In this document: in pieces, positions 4,826 to 11,904 of the stretch
Layout: the number at the start of each line of letters is the position of its first letter
How positions within the stretch are numbered: position 1 is the stretch's first letter
Origin: a virus
Reading direction: 5' to 3' (one strand)
DNA: 22,786 bases
Virus record (IMG/VR): IMGVR_UViG_3300017605_000188
Location: 1 to 22,786 of that record
The notes under the pieces: model-generated
Seen by the model: the letters and a program-made list of their open reading frames with translations, nothing else
What the model was told of the DNA's origin: nothing
Databases searched by the model: none
Program-made: the position numbers and the translations under genes

Positions 4826-6205
4826 ATGCAATGGCTCATCGATCACACCGCCGCCCACCAGATGGAGCGCGCCTGGAAGGGCGGGCTCCGCGCGACGGCG
4901 GAACAGTCAGCTTCGTGGATGAAGCTGGTCGAGGACACGCGCCAGCGGGCCGAAGCCTATGAGGCGCGCGTGGCGGGCAAGACGTCCGCCGCGATCTCCG
5001 ACAGCTACCCGCGCAACGTGAAGGTTGCGGGCGACATCGCCGAGATTCGCGTCGAAGGCATCCTCACCAAGAAGCCCGACTTCTGGAGCTGGTTGCTCTA
5101 CGGGGCGAACACCACCTACGAGAGCATCCAGCAAGCGCTGGCGCTCATCGCTTCGGACGTTGCCATCAAGCGCGTCACCTTTTTCGTCGACAGCCCCGGC
5201 GGCACAGTCGATGGCCTCTTCGAGGCGCTCGCCGCGATCGAGGCGTTCCCGAAGCCGATGAGCGTGCGTTCCTGCTACGCCTGCTCGGCAGCCTATTCGA
5301 TCTCCGCCCTGGCCGGGACGATCGAGGCGACGACGGAGGCCGCGCAGTTCGGCAGCGTGGGCGTGGCTGTCACCTATTTCGTCGATGAGAATGTGATCGA
5401 CATCACGTCCTCGAACGCGCCAAACAAGCGTCCCGATCCGACGACACCAGCCGGTAAGGCGGTCATCGTCGAAGGACTCGACGCGATCGAAGAGATCTTC
5501 GTGGAGGCGATCGCCAAGGGCCGCCAGACGACGACCAAGGACGTCACGAAGAACTACGGCCGCGGCGGCACGGTGCTCGCTGGCAACGCCAAGAGACTCG
5601 GAATGATCGACACCATCGCGAAGCCGCAGACGCGTGTGACGACCATCTCCGGTGAGCCAGCTCCCGACGAAGACGAGACGTCCCCGGACGGCGCGCCCGA
5701 AGAGGCGATCGTTCAAGACAACCCGAGCGCCGGTACGCCGGAAGCTCCTCAAAAAGATGCATCCGCCGTTAGCGGCGGGGCTGCAAAGGCAAGTAAGAAC
5801 ATGACCAAAGAAGAATTGCGTACGCAGCACCCCGAGCTGTTTTCGGCGGTGTACGAAGAGGGCAAGGCTGCAGGCGAAAAGGCCGGCAAAGAGGCGGGCG
5901 AGAAGGACGAGCGCAAGCGCGTCACCGACCACCTCAAGCTGGGTGCCGCCAGCGGTGATCTCGATACCGCCCACAAGGCGATCGAGTCCGGCGCCAGCAT
6001 GGCCGACAAGCAGGCTGACTACCTCGCTGCTTCGATGAAGCGCGGAGCTGTCGCCGTGCGACAAGAAGAGACGGATGCCGCCGGCGCCGCCGCAGACGGC
6101 GCGAAGCCCAAGCCCGTCGTCACGAAGGACGAGCAGGACGAAGTCGCGGCCGAGCTCGAGCGGCTCATGGGTCCGCCCAAGGCCAAGCCGGGAGCGGCGG
6201 CCTAA
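4826..6205 (+). CDS. Head maturation protease with C-terminal scaffold, S49 family (gpC-like)
   Basis: This is a serine peptidase of the SppA/S49 type that processes proheads, fused to a scaffold region. Residues 70-265 carry the protease: FFVDSPGGTVDG (119-130), the nucleophile region YACSAAYSIS with candidate S154, FGSVGV (175-180), and candidate catalytic lysine K201 in APNKRPDP. The Ser-Lys spacing of 47 is close to that of lambda gpC. Residues 275-325 are an acidic, Pro-rich linker. From M326 the protein changes to a helical, Lys/Glu/Ala-rich scaffold (ELRTQHPELFSAVYEEG, then AAGEKAGKEAGEKDERKR), the same arrangement as lambda C with nested Nu3. GGGAAGG (4809-4815) precedes the start. 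It lies between portal and decoration genes, as in lambda. Confidence 0.92.
   Translation: MQWLIDHTAAHQMERAWKGGLRATAEQSASWMKLVEDTRQRAEAYEARVAGKTSAAISDSYPRNVKVAGDIAEIRVEGILTKKPDFWSWLLYGANTTYESIQQALALIASDVAIKRVTFFVDSPGGTVDGLFEALAAIEAFPKPMSVRSCYACSAAYSISALAGTIEATTEAAQFGSVGVAVTYFVDENVIDITSSNAPNKRPDPTTPAGKAVIVEGLDAIEEIFVEAIAKGRQTTTKDVTKNYGRGGTVLAGNAKRLGMIDTIAKPQTRVTTISGEPAPDEDETSPDGAPEEAIVQDNPSAGTPEAPQKDASAVSGGAAKASKNMTKEELRTQHPELFSAVYEEGKAAGEKAGKEAGEKDERKRVTDHLKLGAASGDLDTAHKAIESGASMADKQADYLAASMKRGAVAVRQEETDAAGAAADGAKPKPVVTKDEQDEVAAELERLMGPPKAKPGAAA
5801..6205 (+). CDS. Nested scaffolding protein candidate, Nu3-like internal start
   Basis: An in-frame ATG at codon 326 of the protease gene would produce a separate 134-residue scaffold, mirroring lambda Nu3 inside C. 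The peptide begins MTKEELRTQHPELFSAVYEE, which reads like a natural N-terminus for phage scaffolds. The codons after the ATG (ACC AAA GAA GAA TTG) are unusually A-rich for this GC-rich region, as expected where ribosomes load. Upstream, AAGGCAAG (5786-5793) is a weak ribosome binding site seven bases from the ATG. It would act as the internal template for capsid assembly and then be removed by the protease. The domain boundary and start context are seen; separate translation is inferred. Confidence 0.55.
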   Translation: MTKEELRTQHPELFSAVYEEGKAAGEKAGKEAGEKDERKRVTDHLKLGAASGDLDTAHKAIESGASMADKQADYLAASMKRGAVAVRQEETDAAGAAADGAKPKPVVTKDEQDEVAAELERLMGPPKAKPGAAA

Positions 6206-6233
6206 TCGGGCCCGCCGGAAAGGTAGAAAAACC

Positions 6234-6935
6234 ATGGCAAACATCACCATCACGAACGTGGACGAAGGCTCGATCCAGGTCGGCGAATGCGAGTTCCGGG
6301 ACGAGCTCGTCACCTTCGCTGGCGCGGGCACCCTCGCCGAGGGAACCCTTCTCGCGCGCCAGGACGTCAGTCTCACGCTGACGGCTGGCACCGTTCAGGG
6401 CGGCACCGGCACCGGCACCGTGACCGTGCTCTCGATCCCCAATTCCACCGTCCTCCCGATGGTCGGCGATTGGGTGCTCACGGTCGTCGAGGCCGTAGCC
6501 AACGGCGGCATTTTCAAGCTGGCCGACCCCAACGGCATGATCGTGGCGACCGACCTCCGCATGACTGCGGGCTCGGGCGGCGCGACCGTCGTCGAGGTCG
6601 CTGGCATGCAGTTCACCATCACGGACGCGACCGATTTCATCGCCGGGAACTTCTTCCTGATCACGGTGGCGGCTGGCAGCGGGAAGATGGTGCCGTACAG
6701 CGCCACCGGTGCTGGCGGGGCTCAGTTTCCGAAGGCGGTGCTCGCGAAGGCGCTCACTGCGACCGGAGCTGGCGACCTACCGACGAGACCCATCATCAAG
6801 GGCAAGGTTGCGAAGGAGCGCCTGGTCATCAACGGCGGCGGCTCAATCGGTGCGGCGCTGCTCGATCAGTTGCGCGCCTACGGCATCATCGCCGAGCCCG
6901 TGAAGCAGCTCGCCCGAATCGACAACCCGCAGTGA
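6234..6935 (+). CDS. Head decoration protein, gpD family with inserted beta domain
   Basis: This trimeric cement protein caps the expanded capsid and stabilises it against internal DNA pressure. The gpD-like core is split. The N-terminal part is residues 1-57 (LVTFAGAGTLAEGTLLARQD), and it resumes at about 150 with KMVPYSATGAGGAQFPKAVL, ending in LLDQLRAYGIIAEPVKQL. Lambda gpD is only about 110 residues; this protein is 233 because of an insertion at 58-150 (GTGTGTVTVLS ... NGGIFKLADPNG ... FTITDATDF ... FFLITV). A closely related insertion is found in the tail sheath of this same genome. The start at 6234 is preceded by GGAAAGG with good spacing; the frame stays open further upstream but overlaps the protease gene. 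Two stops in a row (TGA TAA) end it, and a hairpin follows. Confidence 0.88.
   Translation: MANITITNVDEGSIQVGECEFRDELVTFAGAGTLAEGTLLARQDVSLTLTAGTVQGGTGTGTVTVLSIPNSTVLPMVGDWVLTVVEAVANGGIFKLADPNGMIVATDLRMTAGSGGATVVEVAGMQFTITDATDFIAGNFFLITVAAGSGKMVPYSATGAGGAQFPKAVLAKALTATGAGDLPTRPIIKGKVAKERLVINGGGSIGAALLDQLRAYGIIAEPVKQLARIDNPQ
6405..6683 (+). repeat. Inserted beta-rich domain, copy 1 (in decoration protein)
   Basis: Codons 58-150 of the decoration gene. Its key positions GTGxGT, LS, GxWxLxV, AVxNGG, DPxG, FTITD, TDF and ITV are shared with the copy at 10642-10920. By hand alignment about 40 of roughly 90 residues are identical. The DNA is clearly diverged, so the duplication or acquisition is not recent. 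Confidence 0.8.
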
Positions 6936-6941
6936 TAACCA

Positions 6942-6963
6942 GCGGGCCCGCAATCGGGCTCGC
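6942..6963 (+). other. Strong hairpin after decoration gene
   Basis: Arms 6942-6950 and 6955-6963 pair over nine positions with one G-T wobble, around a CAAT loop, seven bases after the decoration stop. It is followed by ATTCTGA, not a T-run, so it is a poor intrinsic terminator. An mRNA-stabilising end or partial attenuator between decoration and capsid genes is more likely. Confidence 0.5.
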
Positions 6964-6980
6964 ATTCTGAAGACACGAGA

Positions 6981-7014
6981 GCGCGGCGTTCCCGGAGACG
7001 GAGCGACGCCGCGC
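6981..7014 (+). other. Inverted repeat in capsid leader
   Basis: GCGCGGCGT (6981-6989) and ACGCCGCGC (7006-7014) are a perfect nine-base inverted repeat with a 16-base spacer, lying about 100 bases before the capsid start. There is no T-run. Two smaller perfect stems follow in the same leader: GGACC/GGTCC at 7023-7037 and GCGCT/AGCGC at 7055-7067. No promoter with recognisable -35 and -10 boxes is visible in 6936-7113. Confidence 0.5.
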
Positions 7015-7113
7015 GCCACATAGGACCAAAGGGGTCCACCGGGCTTCCCTGTCGGCGCTGCGAGCGCACGCGGGGTCGCACAGGTGCGTCCTCGCTTCTG
7101 AAGGAACACGACC

Positions 7114-8208
7114 ATGAGTGACGCATCTACCAAGACCATGCTGCGCCCGTTCATCGAGATGGCGCCGGCGCCTCTCTTTCTTTCGGGCTTTTTCCAGAGC
7201 CCCGAGCAGAACTTCTACCAGAGCCAATCGGTAGAAATCGACCTGCAGCGCGACGGCGAAGACGTTGCCGTTGCGATCACGGATCTCGCGACTGGCAATC
7301 GCTACAACGAGAACAGCCTCGGCTCAAACAAGGAGTTCACGCCTCCGATCTTCAAAGAGGTCGGATCCATCAACGCGTTCCAGCTGCTGACGCGCGAGAT
7401 GGGCGACAACCCGTTTCAGACGCGCCCGTTCCAGGCGAAGGCCACGCTGCGCGCGGCGATGCTGTCGTCGAAGATCCAGAACAAGATTCGACGCTCGCTA
7501 GAGTTGCAGGCGTCGCAGGTGTTTCAGCTCGGCGTGGTGACTCTGGTCAACGATGCCGGCGTCGCCGTGTACACCTTGGATTTCCAGGCCAAGAGCACCC
7601 ACTTCGTCACGCCCACGGCGTGGGCTGCGGGTGGCGCTACTGGCGATCCCTACGGCGACATCGACAGCTTGGCGCAGGTGATCCGCAAGGACGGTCGCCG
7701 TACCGCGGACACGCTGATCCTGGGCACCACCGCGCAAACGCGGTTCCTCGACAACGCCAAGATCAAGGACATTCTGAAGTACGACGGCTTCTACGGCGCC
7801 ACGGGCCGGCCGCAGATCGTACCGGAGCGCACCGGCTCGGACGGCGCGAACTTCCTCGGCAACATCACGATCAACAACTACCGCTACGCCCTCTGGGGTT
7901 ACGACGGTCGGTTCAACCACCCGCAGACGGGCACGTCCACGCCGTTCGTCTCGGACAACAAGGTCATCATGTTGTCGAGCAAGGCGCGATACGACGCGAC
8001 CTTCGGCGCGATCCCGATGATCGCGCAACCGGAAGGGCGCGCCCTCCCGTTCCTGCCTCCGCGCGTGTCGAACGTCGGCGGCGGCATGGACATGATGGTG
8101 AACGCTTGGCTGTCGCCAGATGGCCAGACGTTGTCGGTGTCGGTGTCAAGCCGACCGCTGCTCATCCCGACCGAGGTCGACTCGTACGGTTGCCTCACCG
8201 TCGCCTGA
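7114..8208 (+). CDS. Major capsid protein, gpE family
   Basis: This is the main HK97-fold shell protein. The 364 residues compare with about 340 for lambda gpE. Family features include the early segment LFLSGFFQSPEQNFYQS followed by SVEIDLQRDGEDVAVAITDL (39-58), then NKEFTPPIFKEVGSINAF (72-89, the region before the long helix), and the long helix TLRAAMLSSKIQNKIRRSLE (111-130). The central domain has FLDNAKIKDILKYDGFYG, and the C-terminal part has KVIMLSSKARYDATFGAI and a final PLLIPTEVDSYGCLTV. AAGGAA about ten bases before the ATG is the ribosome binding site. It is the only gene with a long (178-base) structured leader, fitting its role as the most highly expressed product. Confidence 0.93.
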   Translation: MSDASTKTMLRPFIEMAPAPLFLSGFFQSPEQNFYQSQSVEIDLQRDGEDVAVAITDLATGNRYNENSLGSNKEFTPPIFKEVGSINAFQLLTREMGDNPFQTRPFQAKATLRAAMLSSKIQNKIRRSLELQASQVFQLGVVTLVNDAGVAVYTLDFQAKSTHFVTPTAWAAGGATGDPYGDIDSLAQVIRKDGRRTADTLILGTTAQTRFLDNAKIKDILKYDGFYGATGRPQIVPERTGSDGANFLGNITINNYRYALWGYDGRFNHPQTGTSTPFVSDNKVIMLSSKARYDATFGAIPMIAQPEGRALPFLPPRVSNVGGGMDMMVNAWLSPDGQTLSVSVSSRPLLIPTEVDSYGCLTVA

Positions 8209-8217
8209 GCGTGAGAG

Positions 8218-8676
8218 ATGGCGAGCAACAAGGATCTGAGGGCGGATATCGTGGCGCTGTGCGCAGAGCGCAGCGTCGCGGTGCCCGACAGCCTCGAGAG
8301 TCTCAACAACGGGAAGCTGACGGAGCTTCTCGAAAGCCTTCGTCAGCAGCCCGTGGCGCCAGCACCTGTCGAGGAGACGGCGCTTCGTCCGCTTATCGCG
8401 CCGTTGCCGCCTGAGGCAGAGGCGGCGCCAGCGAAACCCTCGGTGGACGAGGACAAGTGCGACGCGCCAGCGGCAACGCTGACTCGTCCGTCCGAGAGCG
8501 CCGCAACGACTGGGGCGCGCGGCTACTTCGTCGCTGCGGGCAAGACCGTCACCAAGACTGTCATGACGTCCAAAGAACTCGCGGGTGCGTTCCAGAACGT
8601 GCACGCCAGTGACTTCGCGGGCGGGCAACGTGAGCTCGATGAGCTTCTGGCCGCTGGCTGCGTGTTCAAGAGGTAG
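8218..8676 (+). CDS. gpFI-position head completion candidate, first paralogue
   Basis: This 152-residue protein follows directly after the capsid gene, where lambda has FI. Residues 1-45 form a small helical domain (SNKDLRADIVALCAERSVAV, then LESLNNGKLTELLESL) that resembles the N-terminal domain of gpFI-like proteins. Residues 46-100 are an Ala/Pro/Glu linker. Residues 100-152 form a small folded tail: RGYFVAAGKTVTK, then NVHASDFAGGQRELDELLAAG. In lambda, gpFI promotes docking of the terminase-DNA complex on the prohead. Its two domains are both repeated in the next gene. The function is inferred from position and domain pattern, not from clear sequence identity. Confidence 0.5.
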   Translation: MASNKDLRADIVALCAERSVAVPDSLESLNNGKLTELLESLRQQPVAPAPVEETALRPLIAPLPPEAEAAPAKPSVDEDKCDAPAATLTRPSESAATTGARGYFVAAGKTVTKTVMTSKELAGAFQNVHASDFAGGQRELDELLAAGCVFKR

Positions 8677-8679
8677 CCC

Positions 8680-9036
8680 ATGGCAAGCAAAGCAGATACG
8701 CGCGCCGCAATCGCCGCGCTGGCGCAGTCGCTCAACGTAGAGACGCCGGACCTGGAAGCCATCGACAAGCTCGAGCCACTCGAGCAGCTGCTCCGTGAGC
8801 TCCAGGAAACGAAGGCCGCGGAGGCGAATCCGCCGCCGCCTGACGAGAGCGGAGCGCCGTCGCCAGCTCGCCGCTACCAAGTGGCAAGCGGCAGGTCGGT
8901 CACCGCAACCAAAAGAGGCGAGCAGTTGGGCGCCCTCAAGACGGTGAGGGCTCGTGACTTCGCGCGTGGCCAGGACGAGCTGGACGAGCTCGTGGCCGGC
9001 GGCTACGTGACGTCGACCGACAGCGCCCGGAGCTGA
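8680..9036 (+). CDS. gpFI-position head completion candidate, second paralogue
   Basis: This 118-residue protein begins three bases after the preceding gene, whose end (AGAGGTAG) provides its ribosome binding site. It repeats the upstream protein's plan: an MASKADTRAAIAALAQSLNV helical head with LEPLEQLLRELQE, a shorter Pro-rich linker (NPPPPDESGAPSP), and a tail RRYQVASGRSVTA followed by TVRARDFARGQDELDELVAG. The matching endings (DFxxGQxELDEL) show the two genes are a tandem duplication that has since diverged. One copy may keep an FI-like packaging role while the other serves as a capsid or neck accessory. The exact role is unknown. Confidence 0.5.
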   Translation: MASKADTRAAIAALAQSLNVETPDLEAIDKLEPLEQLLRELQETKAAEANPPPPDESGAPSPARRYQVASGRSVTATKRGEQLGALKTVRARDFARGQDELDELVAGGYVTSTDSARS

Positions 9037-9038
9037 TC

Positions 9039-9419
9039 GTGAACCTTCTCGAGCAGGCTGCCGCCGACCTGCAAACGATCCTCACGGACAACGTCGGCGG
9101 TTTCGCGACACCGATCACCATCGTCTCGCCGCAAGGCTTGAAGGTGACGATCAACGGGCTGGCCGCCGACATCGGTTTGTCGGTCGACCCCGATACGGGA
9201 ATGTCCGTCTCGGGCCAGAAGGCGTCCGTCGCGCTCCCGATTCGCTCTCTCGAAACGGCTGGCATCGGTCAGCCGCGTGGAGTGAGCGGTCGCGACGCGA
9301 ACCCCTGGCTCGTCAGCTTCACGCTGCCGACTGGTGGTGAGCAGACCTTCAAGGTCTCGAGCTCGGCGCCGGACAAGCTCGGCTGTCTCGTCTGTTTCCT
9401 TGAGTACTTCAACGCATGA
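9039..9419 (+). CDS. Head-tail connector or head completion protein candidate
   Basis: This 126-residue protein has a GTG start preceded by CGGAG at good spacing. The sequence is beta-rich: TPITIVSPQGLKVTINGLAA (24-43), then DIGLSVDPDTGMSVSGQKAS and VALPIRSL, and a C-terminal PWLVSFTLPTGGEQTFKVS ending LGCLVCFLEYF. I recognise this type as a small protein often found between the capsid and sheath genes of Mu-like and related myophages, usually left unnamed; a head-closure or stopper role (lambda gpFII-like position) is the most reasonable guess. It overlaps the next gene by ATGA, implying translational coupling with a neck partner. Confidence 0.5.
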   Translation: MNLLEQAAADLQTILTDNVGGFATPITIVSPQGLKVTINGLAADIGLSVDPDTGMSVSGQKASVALPIRSLETAGIGQPRGVSGRDANPWLVSFTLPTGGEQTFKVSSSAPDKLGCLVCFLEYFNA

Positions 9420-10114
9420 CCGGGCGGATCGAAGCTCTCATCGAACGGGCTGATAACGTCGAGATCATCCGCGATCAGATCGCGGGGATCCTCCTCGAAG
9501 AGTCGGCGCGGCAGCAGGATCTCGCGCGCGAGGGCGGCAAGAACCCCGACGATTTCAAGCTACGCGTCTTCACCGAGGCCTCCAATCCCTGGGAGGAATA
9601 CCTCAGCGACCCGCAGCAGGGGCAGCGGATCGAAGACCCAACACCGCTGGTCAACGTCCAGTGGGACAAGTCCGAAGACGACGCTAAGTCGAGCAACACG
9701 GTAGAGCGCCAGAAGGTTTCGGCGACCTACCACATCGACTGCTACGGCTGCGGCATCGGAGCGGCGACGAGCACCGGGCACATGCCTAGTGATCAGCACG
9801 CCGCGCTCGAAGCCCAGCGCGCTGCGCGCCTCGTGCGCAGCATCTTGATGGCGGGCCATTACACGTACCTCGGTCTGCGAGGAACGGTGTGGGGCCGCTG
9901 GCGCACAGGCGCTCAATCGTTTCACCCGCCGCGCGACGAGCGACCGACGCAGCACGTGCGCGGGGTCCGCATCTTTCTGCGCGTCGACTTCAACGAATTC
10001 TCTCCGCAAGTCGAGGGCACGCCCCTCGCGCTGATCACGGTCCGCATCACGCGAGGCCTGACCGGTGAAGTGACGCTTTTCGAAGGCAGCTATCCGCAGG
10101 AGCTAACGCCATGA
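9416..10114 (+). CDS. Neck or tail terminator/completion protein candidate
   Basis: This 232-residue protein is linked to both neighbours by ATGA overlaps, between the connector candidate and the tail sheath. Residues 1-30 are helical (RIEALIERADNVEIIRDQIA). The middle has a beta strand, PLVNVQWDKSEDDAKSS, then VSATYHIDCYGCGIGA with two cysteines. A helix, ALEAQRAARLVRSILMAG, follows, then a C-terminal beta region VRGVRIFLRVDFNEFSPQVE and TPLALITVRIT. The mixed fold and position before the sheath fit a tail terminator or tail-completion protein, the kind that caps the tube and sheath and joins the head. No clear named homologue is recognised. Confidence 0.5.
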   Translation: MTGRIEALIERADNVEIIRDQIAGILLEESARQQDLAREGGKNPDDFKLRVFTEASNPWEEYLSDPQQGQRIEDPTPLVNVQWDKSEDDAKSSNTVERQKVSATYHIDCYGCGIGAATSTGHMPSDQHAALEAQRAARLVRSILMAGHYTYLGLRGTVWGRWRTGAQSFHPPRDERPTQHVRGVRIFLRVDFNEFSPQVEGTPLALITVRITRGLTGEVTLFEGSYPQELTP

Positions 10115-11904
10115 CTGGTATCGATCAATCCGCCGTAGCGAGTGTGCTTGGCGTTTCCGCTGAGTTCGTCGACCTCCGTTCCGGGAGCATCTTGTATCTG
10201 CCGCAGCGCCTCGCGATCTGCGCCCAAGGTGAGACCGCTGTTTCGTTCAGCACCGACAAGTGGACCGCCACGGGCGTCGCTGCGACCGGAACGAAATACG
10301 GGTTTCGCTCGCAGATTTACCACATGCTGCGGTCGCTCTTGCCGGCCAACGGCGACGGCGTCGGCACCATCCCGATCGACATCCTGCCTCTCGAGGACGA
10401 CGACGACGCGGTGGCAGCGACGGGGACCGTCACGCTTTCTGGCACCGTGACCGAGGCGGGCGCCTATCGCTTGCGCGTTTCTGGAATCCTCTCGAAGGAG
10501 TTCGTGCTTCCCGAGGGTGCGCTCACCGGCGCCGCGCTCTACGCAGCGCTGCGTGACATGGGTGCGAAGTGCACCGAGGCGATCGACCTTCCGGCTACGG
10601 TCTCGTACACCTACGGCTCGGTCACGGCTTCCGCCCTGGTCGGTACCGGTAACGGCACGATCACCGCGCTGTCGGTCAACGTTGGCTCGACGCCGAAGCC
10701 CGGCGCCTGGACGCTCAAGGTCAACACGGCCGTGACGAACGGCGGCGTCTGGACGCTCACCGATCCGGACGGCGTGGTCATCTCGACGACCGTGACGCAG
10801 ACTGTCGGCGTCGGCGCCGTCACCGTGTTCGACAACGTGGGCGGCCTGGACTTCACGATCACGGACGGAACCACGGATTTCGCGCTCAACGAGACCTTCA
10901 CGATCACGGTGCCGGCCACGAACATGAAGCTCGTGAGCGCATGGAAGGGCGTCAGCGCGAACGACCTCTACATTGAGGTCATCGGTGACACGACGCTCGG
11001 CGCGACCTTCGCGATCGTTCAACCCACGGGCGGGCTCGTGAATCCCGAAGTCGACGCAGCGCTCGACAAGGTGGGCAGCGTCTGGAACACGATGCTCATC
11101 AACGGCCTGAACATCGAGGACGAGGTCGCGCTGGACGCGTACCAGACCTTCGGTGAAGCGCGCTGGGCTCCGACGGTGCGCCGCCCGCTCGTCGTCTTCA
11201 CCGGGAACACGGAGCTCGATGTCGAGGACGCCACAGCGATCTGCTCGACGCGTCGCGACGACCGCGTCAACGCGCAGCTCGTGGCGCCCGGCAGCGTGAA
11301 CCTGCCCTGTGTCGTGGCCGCGCGGCAGGCGGGGCTCATCGCCCGCCAAGCCAACAGCAACCCGCCGACCAGCTATCAGAAGACGCAAGCGACCGGCATC
11401 ATCGCCGGCGCCGACGAGCTGCAGTGGGACGCGACCACGCGCGACGCGGCCGTCAAGCTCGGTAGCTCTACCGTCGAAGTGGCCGACGAGATCGTCCGGA
11501 TCTCCGACGTCGTCACCTTCTACCGCCCCGTCGGTGAAGAGCCGCCTGGCTTCCGCAAGGTGGTCCACATCGTCCGCATCTCGAACGCGATCTTCAACAC
11601 GGACATCGAGTTCGCGAAGAAGGAGTGGGCAGCCGCGCCCGTCATCGCCGACGAGGACGCAACGACGAACGACAAGGCCAAGCAGCCCAAGATGTTCAAG
11701 GCGAAGATGAACCAGATTCTCGAGAATCTGGGCGACGCCGCGATCATCAAGAACGTCACCGCTGCGAAGAAGCTGACGACGGCTGTCGTCAATGCGCAGA
11801 ACCCCGACCGCGTGGACCTGCGCGCGCGTTTCCCGCTCTCGTCCAACGCCGACATCATCAACGTCGACTTGGAGTTCGGCTTCTTCGGCGGAGCAGCCGC
11901 CTAA
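10111..11904 (+). CDS. Contractile tail sheath protein, Mu gpL-like, with inserted beta domain
   Basis: This protein forms the outer sheath that contracts to drive the tube into the cell. Its 597 residues exceed Mu gpL (about 495) mainly because of an inserted domain. N-terminal segments (LPQRLAICAQGETAV, FRSQIYHMLRSLLPANG, TIPIDILPLED) match the Mu-like sheath plan. A polymorphic outer domain (TGTVTLSGTVTEAGAYRLRV ... DLPATVSYTYGSVTASA) is interrupted at about 178-270 by the insertion, then resumes with KLVSAWKGVSANDLYIEV. The C-terminal core (RKVVHIVRISNAIFNTDIEF, then MFKAKMNQILENLGDAAII and IINVDLEFGF) supplies the inter-subunit strands. Presence of the sheath makes the phage a myovirus-type particle. 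Confidence 0.9.
   Translation: MTGIDQSAVASVLGVSAEFVDLRSGSILYLPQRLAICAQGETAVSFSTDKWTATGVAATGTKYGFRSQIYHMLRSLLPANGDGVGTIPIDILPLEDDDDAVAATGTVTLSGTVTEAGAYRLRVSGILSKEFVLPEGALTGAALYAALRDMGAKCTEAIDLPATVSYTYGSVTASALVGTGNGTITALSVNVGSTPKPGAWTLKVNTAVTNGGVWTLTDPDGVVISTTVTQTVGVGAVTVFDNVGGLDFTITDGTTDFALNETFTITVPATNMKLVSAWKGVSANDLYIEVIGDTTLGATFAIVQPTGGLVNPEVDAALDKVGSVWNTMLINGLNIEDEVALDAYQTFGEARWAPTVRRPLVVFTGNTELDVEDATAICSTRRDDRVNAQLVAPGSVNLPCVVAARQAGLIARQANSNPPTSYQKTQATGIIAGADELQWDATTRDAAVKLGSSTVEVADEIVRISDVVTFYRPVGEEPPGFRKVVHIVRISNAIFNTDIEFAKKEWAAAPVIADEDATTNDKAKQPKMFKAKMNQILENLGDAAIIKNVTAAKKLTTAVVNAQNPDRVDLRARFPLSSNADIINVDLEFGFFGGAAA
10642..10920 (+). repeat. Inserted beta-rich domain, copy 2 (in tail sheath)
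   Basis: Codons 178-270 of the sheath gene hold a domain related to the insertion in the decoration protein (6405-6683): GTGNGTITALS, GAWTLKV, AVTNGG, LTDPDG, LDFTITDGTTDF and FTITV. It sits between two strands of the sheath's outer domain, so it should project outward from the tail. Confidence 0.8.

Follow-up and report, generated by a model that had tools for sequence, protein, structure and literature searches.

The head decoration protein and the tail sheath protein of a contractile-tailed phage (IMG/VR record IMGVR_UViG_3300017605_000188) carry one and the same domain. The window, that is the whole stretch of DNA analysed here, comprises 22,786 nt, and its two copies of the domain (decoration residues 57–150 and sheath residues 178–270) are, with high confidence, one homologous module cleanly inserted into both proteins. 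The observations are probably best explained by a promiscuous accessory module of the virion surface, of the type of the D2 domain of the flagellar proteins FlgL and FlgK, which would face outward and make weak multivalent contacts.

The features of the window are collected in Table 1. The decoration gene lies between the protease and the capsid genes, which is the expected place of a gpD gene. The genome is a mosaic, in which a head module of the lambda type (Clp/S49 protease, gpD and PF03864 capsid; 4826–8208) stands beside a Mu-like contractile tail (10111–11904). In the interval between the capsid and neck genes, two open reading frames (ORFs; 8218–8676 and 8680–9036) look by eye like tandem paralogues, sharing the start MAS, a YxVAxG block and an end of the RDFAxGQxELDEL type.

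Table 1. Genes of the window that bear on the inserted domain, and predicted strands of its two copies.
Feature	Position (nt)	Strand	Evidence or remark
S49/Clp-type protease	4826–6205
gpD-type head decoration protein, 233 aa	6234–6935	+	ATG at 6234; PHROG 49, E 1.1e-7; Pfam HDPD, E 7.4e-6
Inserted domain, decoration residues 57–150	6402–6683	+	BLASTP against the sheath copy; absent in gpD relatives; predicted strands within 62–145
PF03864 capsid protein	7114–8208
Neck-position protein	9416–10114	+	PHROG 4671, E 1.6e-46; directly upstream of the sheath gene; domain-free in the window
Mu-type tail sheath protein, 597 aa	10111–11904	+	PHROG 165, E 2.4e-59; Foldseek, Mu sheath, E 6e-27
Linker strand, sheath residues 163–177	10597–10641	+	Absent, like the domain, from L044, L049, L053 and L187
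Inserted domain, sheath residues 178–270	10642–10920	+	Block matches the decoration copy; predicted strands within 183–267
Strands 1–4, decoration/sheath residues			62–67/183–189, 78–88/198–208, 91–97/211–217, 103–109/223–229 (AlphaFold)
Strands 5–7, decoration/sheath residues			117–122/237–243, 125–130/246–251, 140–145/262–267 (AlphaFold)

The similarity of the two copies is directly visible in pairwise comparison. BLASTP of the two proteins aligns decoration residues 57–153 with sheath residues 178–275, with 46 of 99 positions identical (E 2e-19), and tblastn within the record recovers the same block at 49% identity (E 4e-18). The initial annotation had counted by hand about 40 identical positions in roughly 90; this homology is borne out, and its list of shared motifs, its residue ranges and the points where the host proteins resume (KMVPYS in the decoration protein, KLVSAWKG in the sheath) proved correct on re-checking. 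When the gpD and sheath cores were used as controls in the profile comparison, probabilities stayed below 0.3%, and the similarity of the domains is therefore not due to chance.

Both hosts were identified by comparison with known families. The decoration protein is assigned by profile match to the gpD head decoration family (PF02924/PHROG 49). Its match to Pfam HDPD (PF02924) reaches 26.5 bits, just under the cut-off of 29.1, and bridges residues 35–202 against profile positions 34–98, being split because of the insert that lies inside it. The sheath is of the Mu type (PHROG 165) by both profile and fold; its best Foldseek match is the Mu sheath gp39 (9ki1, 9khy), with a TM score of 0.79 normalised by the target. 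The Mu structure has 493–494 modelled residues against 597 in the window sheath, and the difference fits an insert of about 104 residues, which is the size of the sheath block when the linker strand, present or absent in step with the domain, is counted. In alignments, empty sites are found for both hosts: four sheaths 46–48% identical to that of the window (L044, L049, L053, L187) and six gpD proteins (L174, L177, L180, L181, L032, L034) lack the block. Since these relatives are without exactly this segment, the insertions are clean. Together with the homology and the common order of predicted strands, the empty sites uphold the proposal of a module that sits as an insert in both virion proteins and can pass from one protein family to another.

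The AlphaFold models of the two copies are confident, with a mean pLDDT within the domain of 89.5 in the decoration protein and 87.8 in the sheath. Both contain seven strands in identical order and with near-equal spacing. Different folds, which would have spoken against a single module, are thus not what the models present at the level of strand order. The domain alone gave no convincing match in Pfam, PHROG and NCBIfam scans, and sequence searches of the PDB returned no relevant match. The initial annotation had expected a common immunoglobulin-like (Ig-like) fold; the closest fold found is instead the 5+3-strand beta-sandwich of flagellar FlgL/FlgK D2, and no named Ig-like family was reached.

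A beta-sandwich spread over many virion proteins could be an ordinary phage Ig-like domain, of the Big_2, I-set or FN3 class of Fraser 2006, which the profile libraries have missed. Tailed phages are known to carry promiscuous Ig-like domains in virion proteins of different families, decoration and major tail proteins among them (Fraser 2006, reviewed in PMC7602432), and the additional domains of sheaths are often Ig-like (PMC9230969). The window domain resembles the former as a single predicted beta-sandwich family found across unrelated virion proteins, and it differs from them in having no sequence match to those families and in a fold search that favours FlgL. The window copies have no credible match to an Ig family in Pfam, and neither does a 24-row alignment of the phage domain, where one Big_9 match was obtained (E 0.046); the Foldseek list, moreover, is led by FlgL and not by Ig structures. 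The Ig-like assignment is accordingly improbable. With the additional sheath domains described by Evseev 2022 (PMC9230969) the window domain shares its beta-rich character and its position in the middle of the sheath, away from the conserved core. Unlike them, its sequence family also occurs on the capsid decoration protein, a link that the available text of that study does not report.

The search of the decoration model against the PDB with Foldseek placed FlgL first (Xanthomonas 5zj0 and 5ziz, Legionella 7c7z), with 5yti in sixth position. The FlgL matches had a probability of 1.00 and modest E-values of 3e-3 to 1e-2, obtained with the whole protein as the query rather than the domain. For these two reasons, the kinship with FlgL was tested by sequence. 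The D2 alignment was compiled from FlgL genes of bacteria with related prophages and of the order of one such bacterium. Aligned by hhalign with this D2 set, the phage domain alignments reached probabilities of 93.8% and 93.5% over 75–77 columns. Larger phage alignments gave 85–94%, controls (300 column-shuffled runs, three reversed) at most 4.9%, and the gpD and sheath cores below 0.3%, so the likeness of the profiles exceeds an effect of composition. None of 24 phage members matched Pfam PF21158 (flgK_1st_1, D2-like) directly, and a Paraburkholderia FlgL D2 itself matches it weakly (22.1 bits against 24.2). The HMM of the phage domain found FlgL below threshold, with the D2 region in register, and when the D2 model was run on 17,159 ORFs of phages and prophages, E-values were weak, with known carriers of the domain making up 23 of the top 50.

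In FlgL, D2 is a beta-sandwich inserted in the helix bundle of D1; it is missing from the FlgL of Bacillus cereus, is common to FlgK and was modelled as exposed on the flagellar junction ring (PMC6155364). The phage domain, a predicted beta-sandwich, is like the flagellar D2 an optional insert in a tube-forming protein, and each is common to two proteins of one structure (PMC6155364). FlgL D2 typically starts with NTGTGxI and ends with GDxFTV, and the phage domain likewise has a GTGxGxI start and a GDxFTV end. The phage copies differ from FlgL/FlgK D2 in the extra loops NGG, DPDG and DGxTDF, in their location on virions and in the lack of a direct PF21158 match. It is reasonably probable that the phage domain is kin to the FlgL-D2 type. 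The profile comparisons make common descent of the two likely, but do not prove it. The broader proposition, that a single transferable outer domain has come down by common descent to both tailed phages and the bacterial flagellum, and that phages have installed it on proteins of the head, neck, sheath and tail tube and on further virion proteins, is about evenly balanced. In the literature searched, mostly outside the subscription journals, no earlier link between flagellum and phage was found, nor was the relation to flagellar D2.

The domain is not peculiar to the particle of this phage; it belongs to a large family that spans at least nine virion protein families, where it is inserted or terminal. 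IMG/VR was searched with domain-focused and sheath-group queries, and the loci were dereplicated to 165, the window included; a whole-sheath pattern search of IMG/VR gave no match. Of two scans of genome contigs, the first found no relatives and the second, which used a tandem-type profile, found 23. In the 165 loci, 235 domain copies were detected in 177 ORFs; these counts are skewed relative to true frequencies because the searches started from the domain. After excision of the domain, 144 ORFs were classified as gpD-type decoration proteins and 25 as Mu-type sheaths of one clade, and the remainder comprised two neck-position proteins, one T4-type sheath with two copies (L022) and five others. 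Thus other sheaths do carry the domain, a point on which the initial annotation had called for a survey, and they include T4-type ones. PHROG and Pfam scans named as further hosts PHROG 23 sheaths (L154; L248, from Methylobacterium), Phage_cement_2 (L200), PHROG 687 structural proteins (L170, L254), a PHROG 807 major tail protein (L265), PHROG 11591 (L022) and a giant virion protein of PHROG 10938 (L021). Among cultured phages, the siphophages Ab19 and Bhz54 carry the domain in a structural protein whose gene immediately follows that of the tape measure, and Pseudomonas phage Turba has one copy in its head decoration protein.

Tandem copies occur in roughly 40 of the 144 decoration ORFs. At least three full or partial copies were noted in the decoration proteins of L066, L083, L151, L152 and L157, and that of L083 (6113–7792, 560 aa) seems to be built of repeats that are nested or overlap. 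In a genome bin of Desulfobacteraceae, a protein of 2231 aa (L264, 2316–9008) has one copy near its C-terminal end and a partial match to PHROG 7803.

The head and tail copies are not coupled, as their distribution over loci shows. The domain is present in both the decoration protein and a Mu-type sheath in nine loci (the window, L003, L047, L050, L052, L079, L176, L186 and L188). Ten loci have it in the Mu-type sheath only, with a domain-free gpD present, and 25 loci with a Mu-type sheath have it in the decoration protein only, some of these sheaths ending at the contig edge. For six further loci with a domain-bearing sheath the decoration gene is not visible. Two of the phages (L052 and L079) carry the domain in three proteins, namely decoration, neck and sheath, the neck copy being a divergent one in a PHROG 4671 protein (5444–6394 and 5407–6456, respectively). 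A prophage-like locus from a gammaproteobacterial genome bin (L265) has it in the decoration protein (7794–8456) and in the PHROG 807 major tail protein (10258–11376), which is a head-plus-tail pattern in a non-contractile type.

On the domain tree, which has few columns and many unresolved forks, the copies cluster by host, those of sheaths together and those of decoration proteins together. The exception is formed by L052 and L079, where the decoration and neck-protein copies make up one distinct group. Recent copying between the decoration and sheath genes of the window was considered and rejected: the two copies are not mutual nearest neighbours and rank 48 and 29. On the tree of sheath cores, the presence of the domain requires two state changes within a supported clade, either a gain and a loss or a pair of gains. 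As the copies track their host gene, the domain passed between the two gene families long ago and has since been inherited with the host gene.

The history of the domain bears on its function. Recombination could spread a tolerated insert of little function into permissive loops, in agreement with its being optional in relatives and with the uncoupled head and tail copies. This is very improbable, given that the domain persists throughout a deep clade of sheaths, its state changing about twice, and that it is conserved above the host core. Within the sheath clade, conservation is 0.56 for the domain and 0.50 for the core, with the domain higher in 167 of 231 (non-independent) pairs; in related decoration proteins the values are 0.615 and 0.478, with the domain higher in 143 of 153 pairs, likewise non-independent. 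Such conservation speaks against a neutral insert. Conservation is highest at turn glycines, asparagines and aspartates, as well as at aromatics, which probably sit in the domain core; no invariant candidate ligand site stands out.

The same conservation speaks for a cementing module, whose inserts would touch neighbouring copies or the core of a neighbour and make the capsid lattice or the extended sheath more rigid. Cements are frequent among decoration proteins (PMC7602432), FlgL D2 was suggested to reinforce the flagellar junction (PMC6155364), and for an extra domain of the phage 812 sheath PMC9230969 cites a proposed role in stabilising the disk. Nevertheless, cementing is unlikely: related sheaths exist without the domain, and the hosts vary in geometry (gpD, sheath, neck, tail tube, terminal in a cement protein) and in tandem number, which makes one common lateral contact implausible. 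The simplest factor common to single, tandem and terminal copies in hosts of such different geometry is surface exposure, and this favours a generic contact of the outer surface over cementing.

Surface display, already proposed in the initial annotation, is supported indirectly, by gpD being a capsid-surface protein and by domain III of the Mu sheath, which extends outward and is the divergent, variable part of sheaths (PMC11915804). The additional domains of sheaths are situated away from the tube (PMC9230969). Judging by the fold match, the window sheath insert would sit in the outer part corresponding to Mu domain III. The accessory surface module would then be a seven-strand beta-sandwich of about 85–95 residues, inserted between strands or appended at the ends of virion proteins, pointing outward on capsid and tail, as homology suggests, and dispensable for assembly. 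Its display on many decoration and sheath subunits would provide avidity to a weak multivalent contact between the particle surface and its surroundings, such as the cell envelope or other polymers. The adhesion step itself, for instance weak multivalent adhesion as a generic outer-surface contact, is tentative, falling somewhat short of an even chance; the initial annotation had thought of glycans or surfaces as possible targets. Conservation above the core counts against this explanation, as it is atypical of a fast-evolving receptor binder, and so does the failure of an obvious conserved ligand site to stand out.

Promiscuous phage Ig-like domains and extra sheath domains are already known, and hence so is the kind of element described here. 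Neither the sequence family of the domain nor its occurrence on proteins of head, neck, sheath and tail turned up in the literature searched, mostly outside the subscription journals. The domain represents a further promiscuous family of the virion surface beside the Ig-like ones, unmodelled in general profile libraries, and a single phage bears it on capsid as well as contractile sheath proteins. For each of the two hosts, natural counterparts that have the domain and that lack it are available, which makes its role directly testable, and cultured phages of Pseudomonas and Stenotrophomonas offer relatives in which such tests are practical. The connection with the flagellar junction suggests that the extracellular assemblies of bacteria and viruses use one pool of outer domains; if the common descent is true, virions and flagella would be decorated with the same part.
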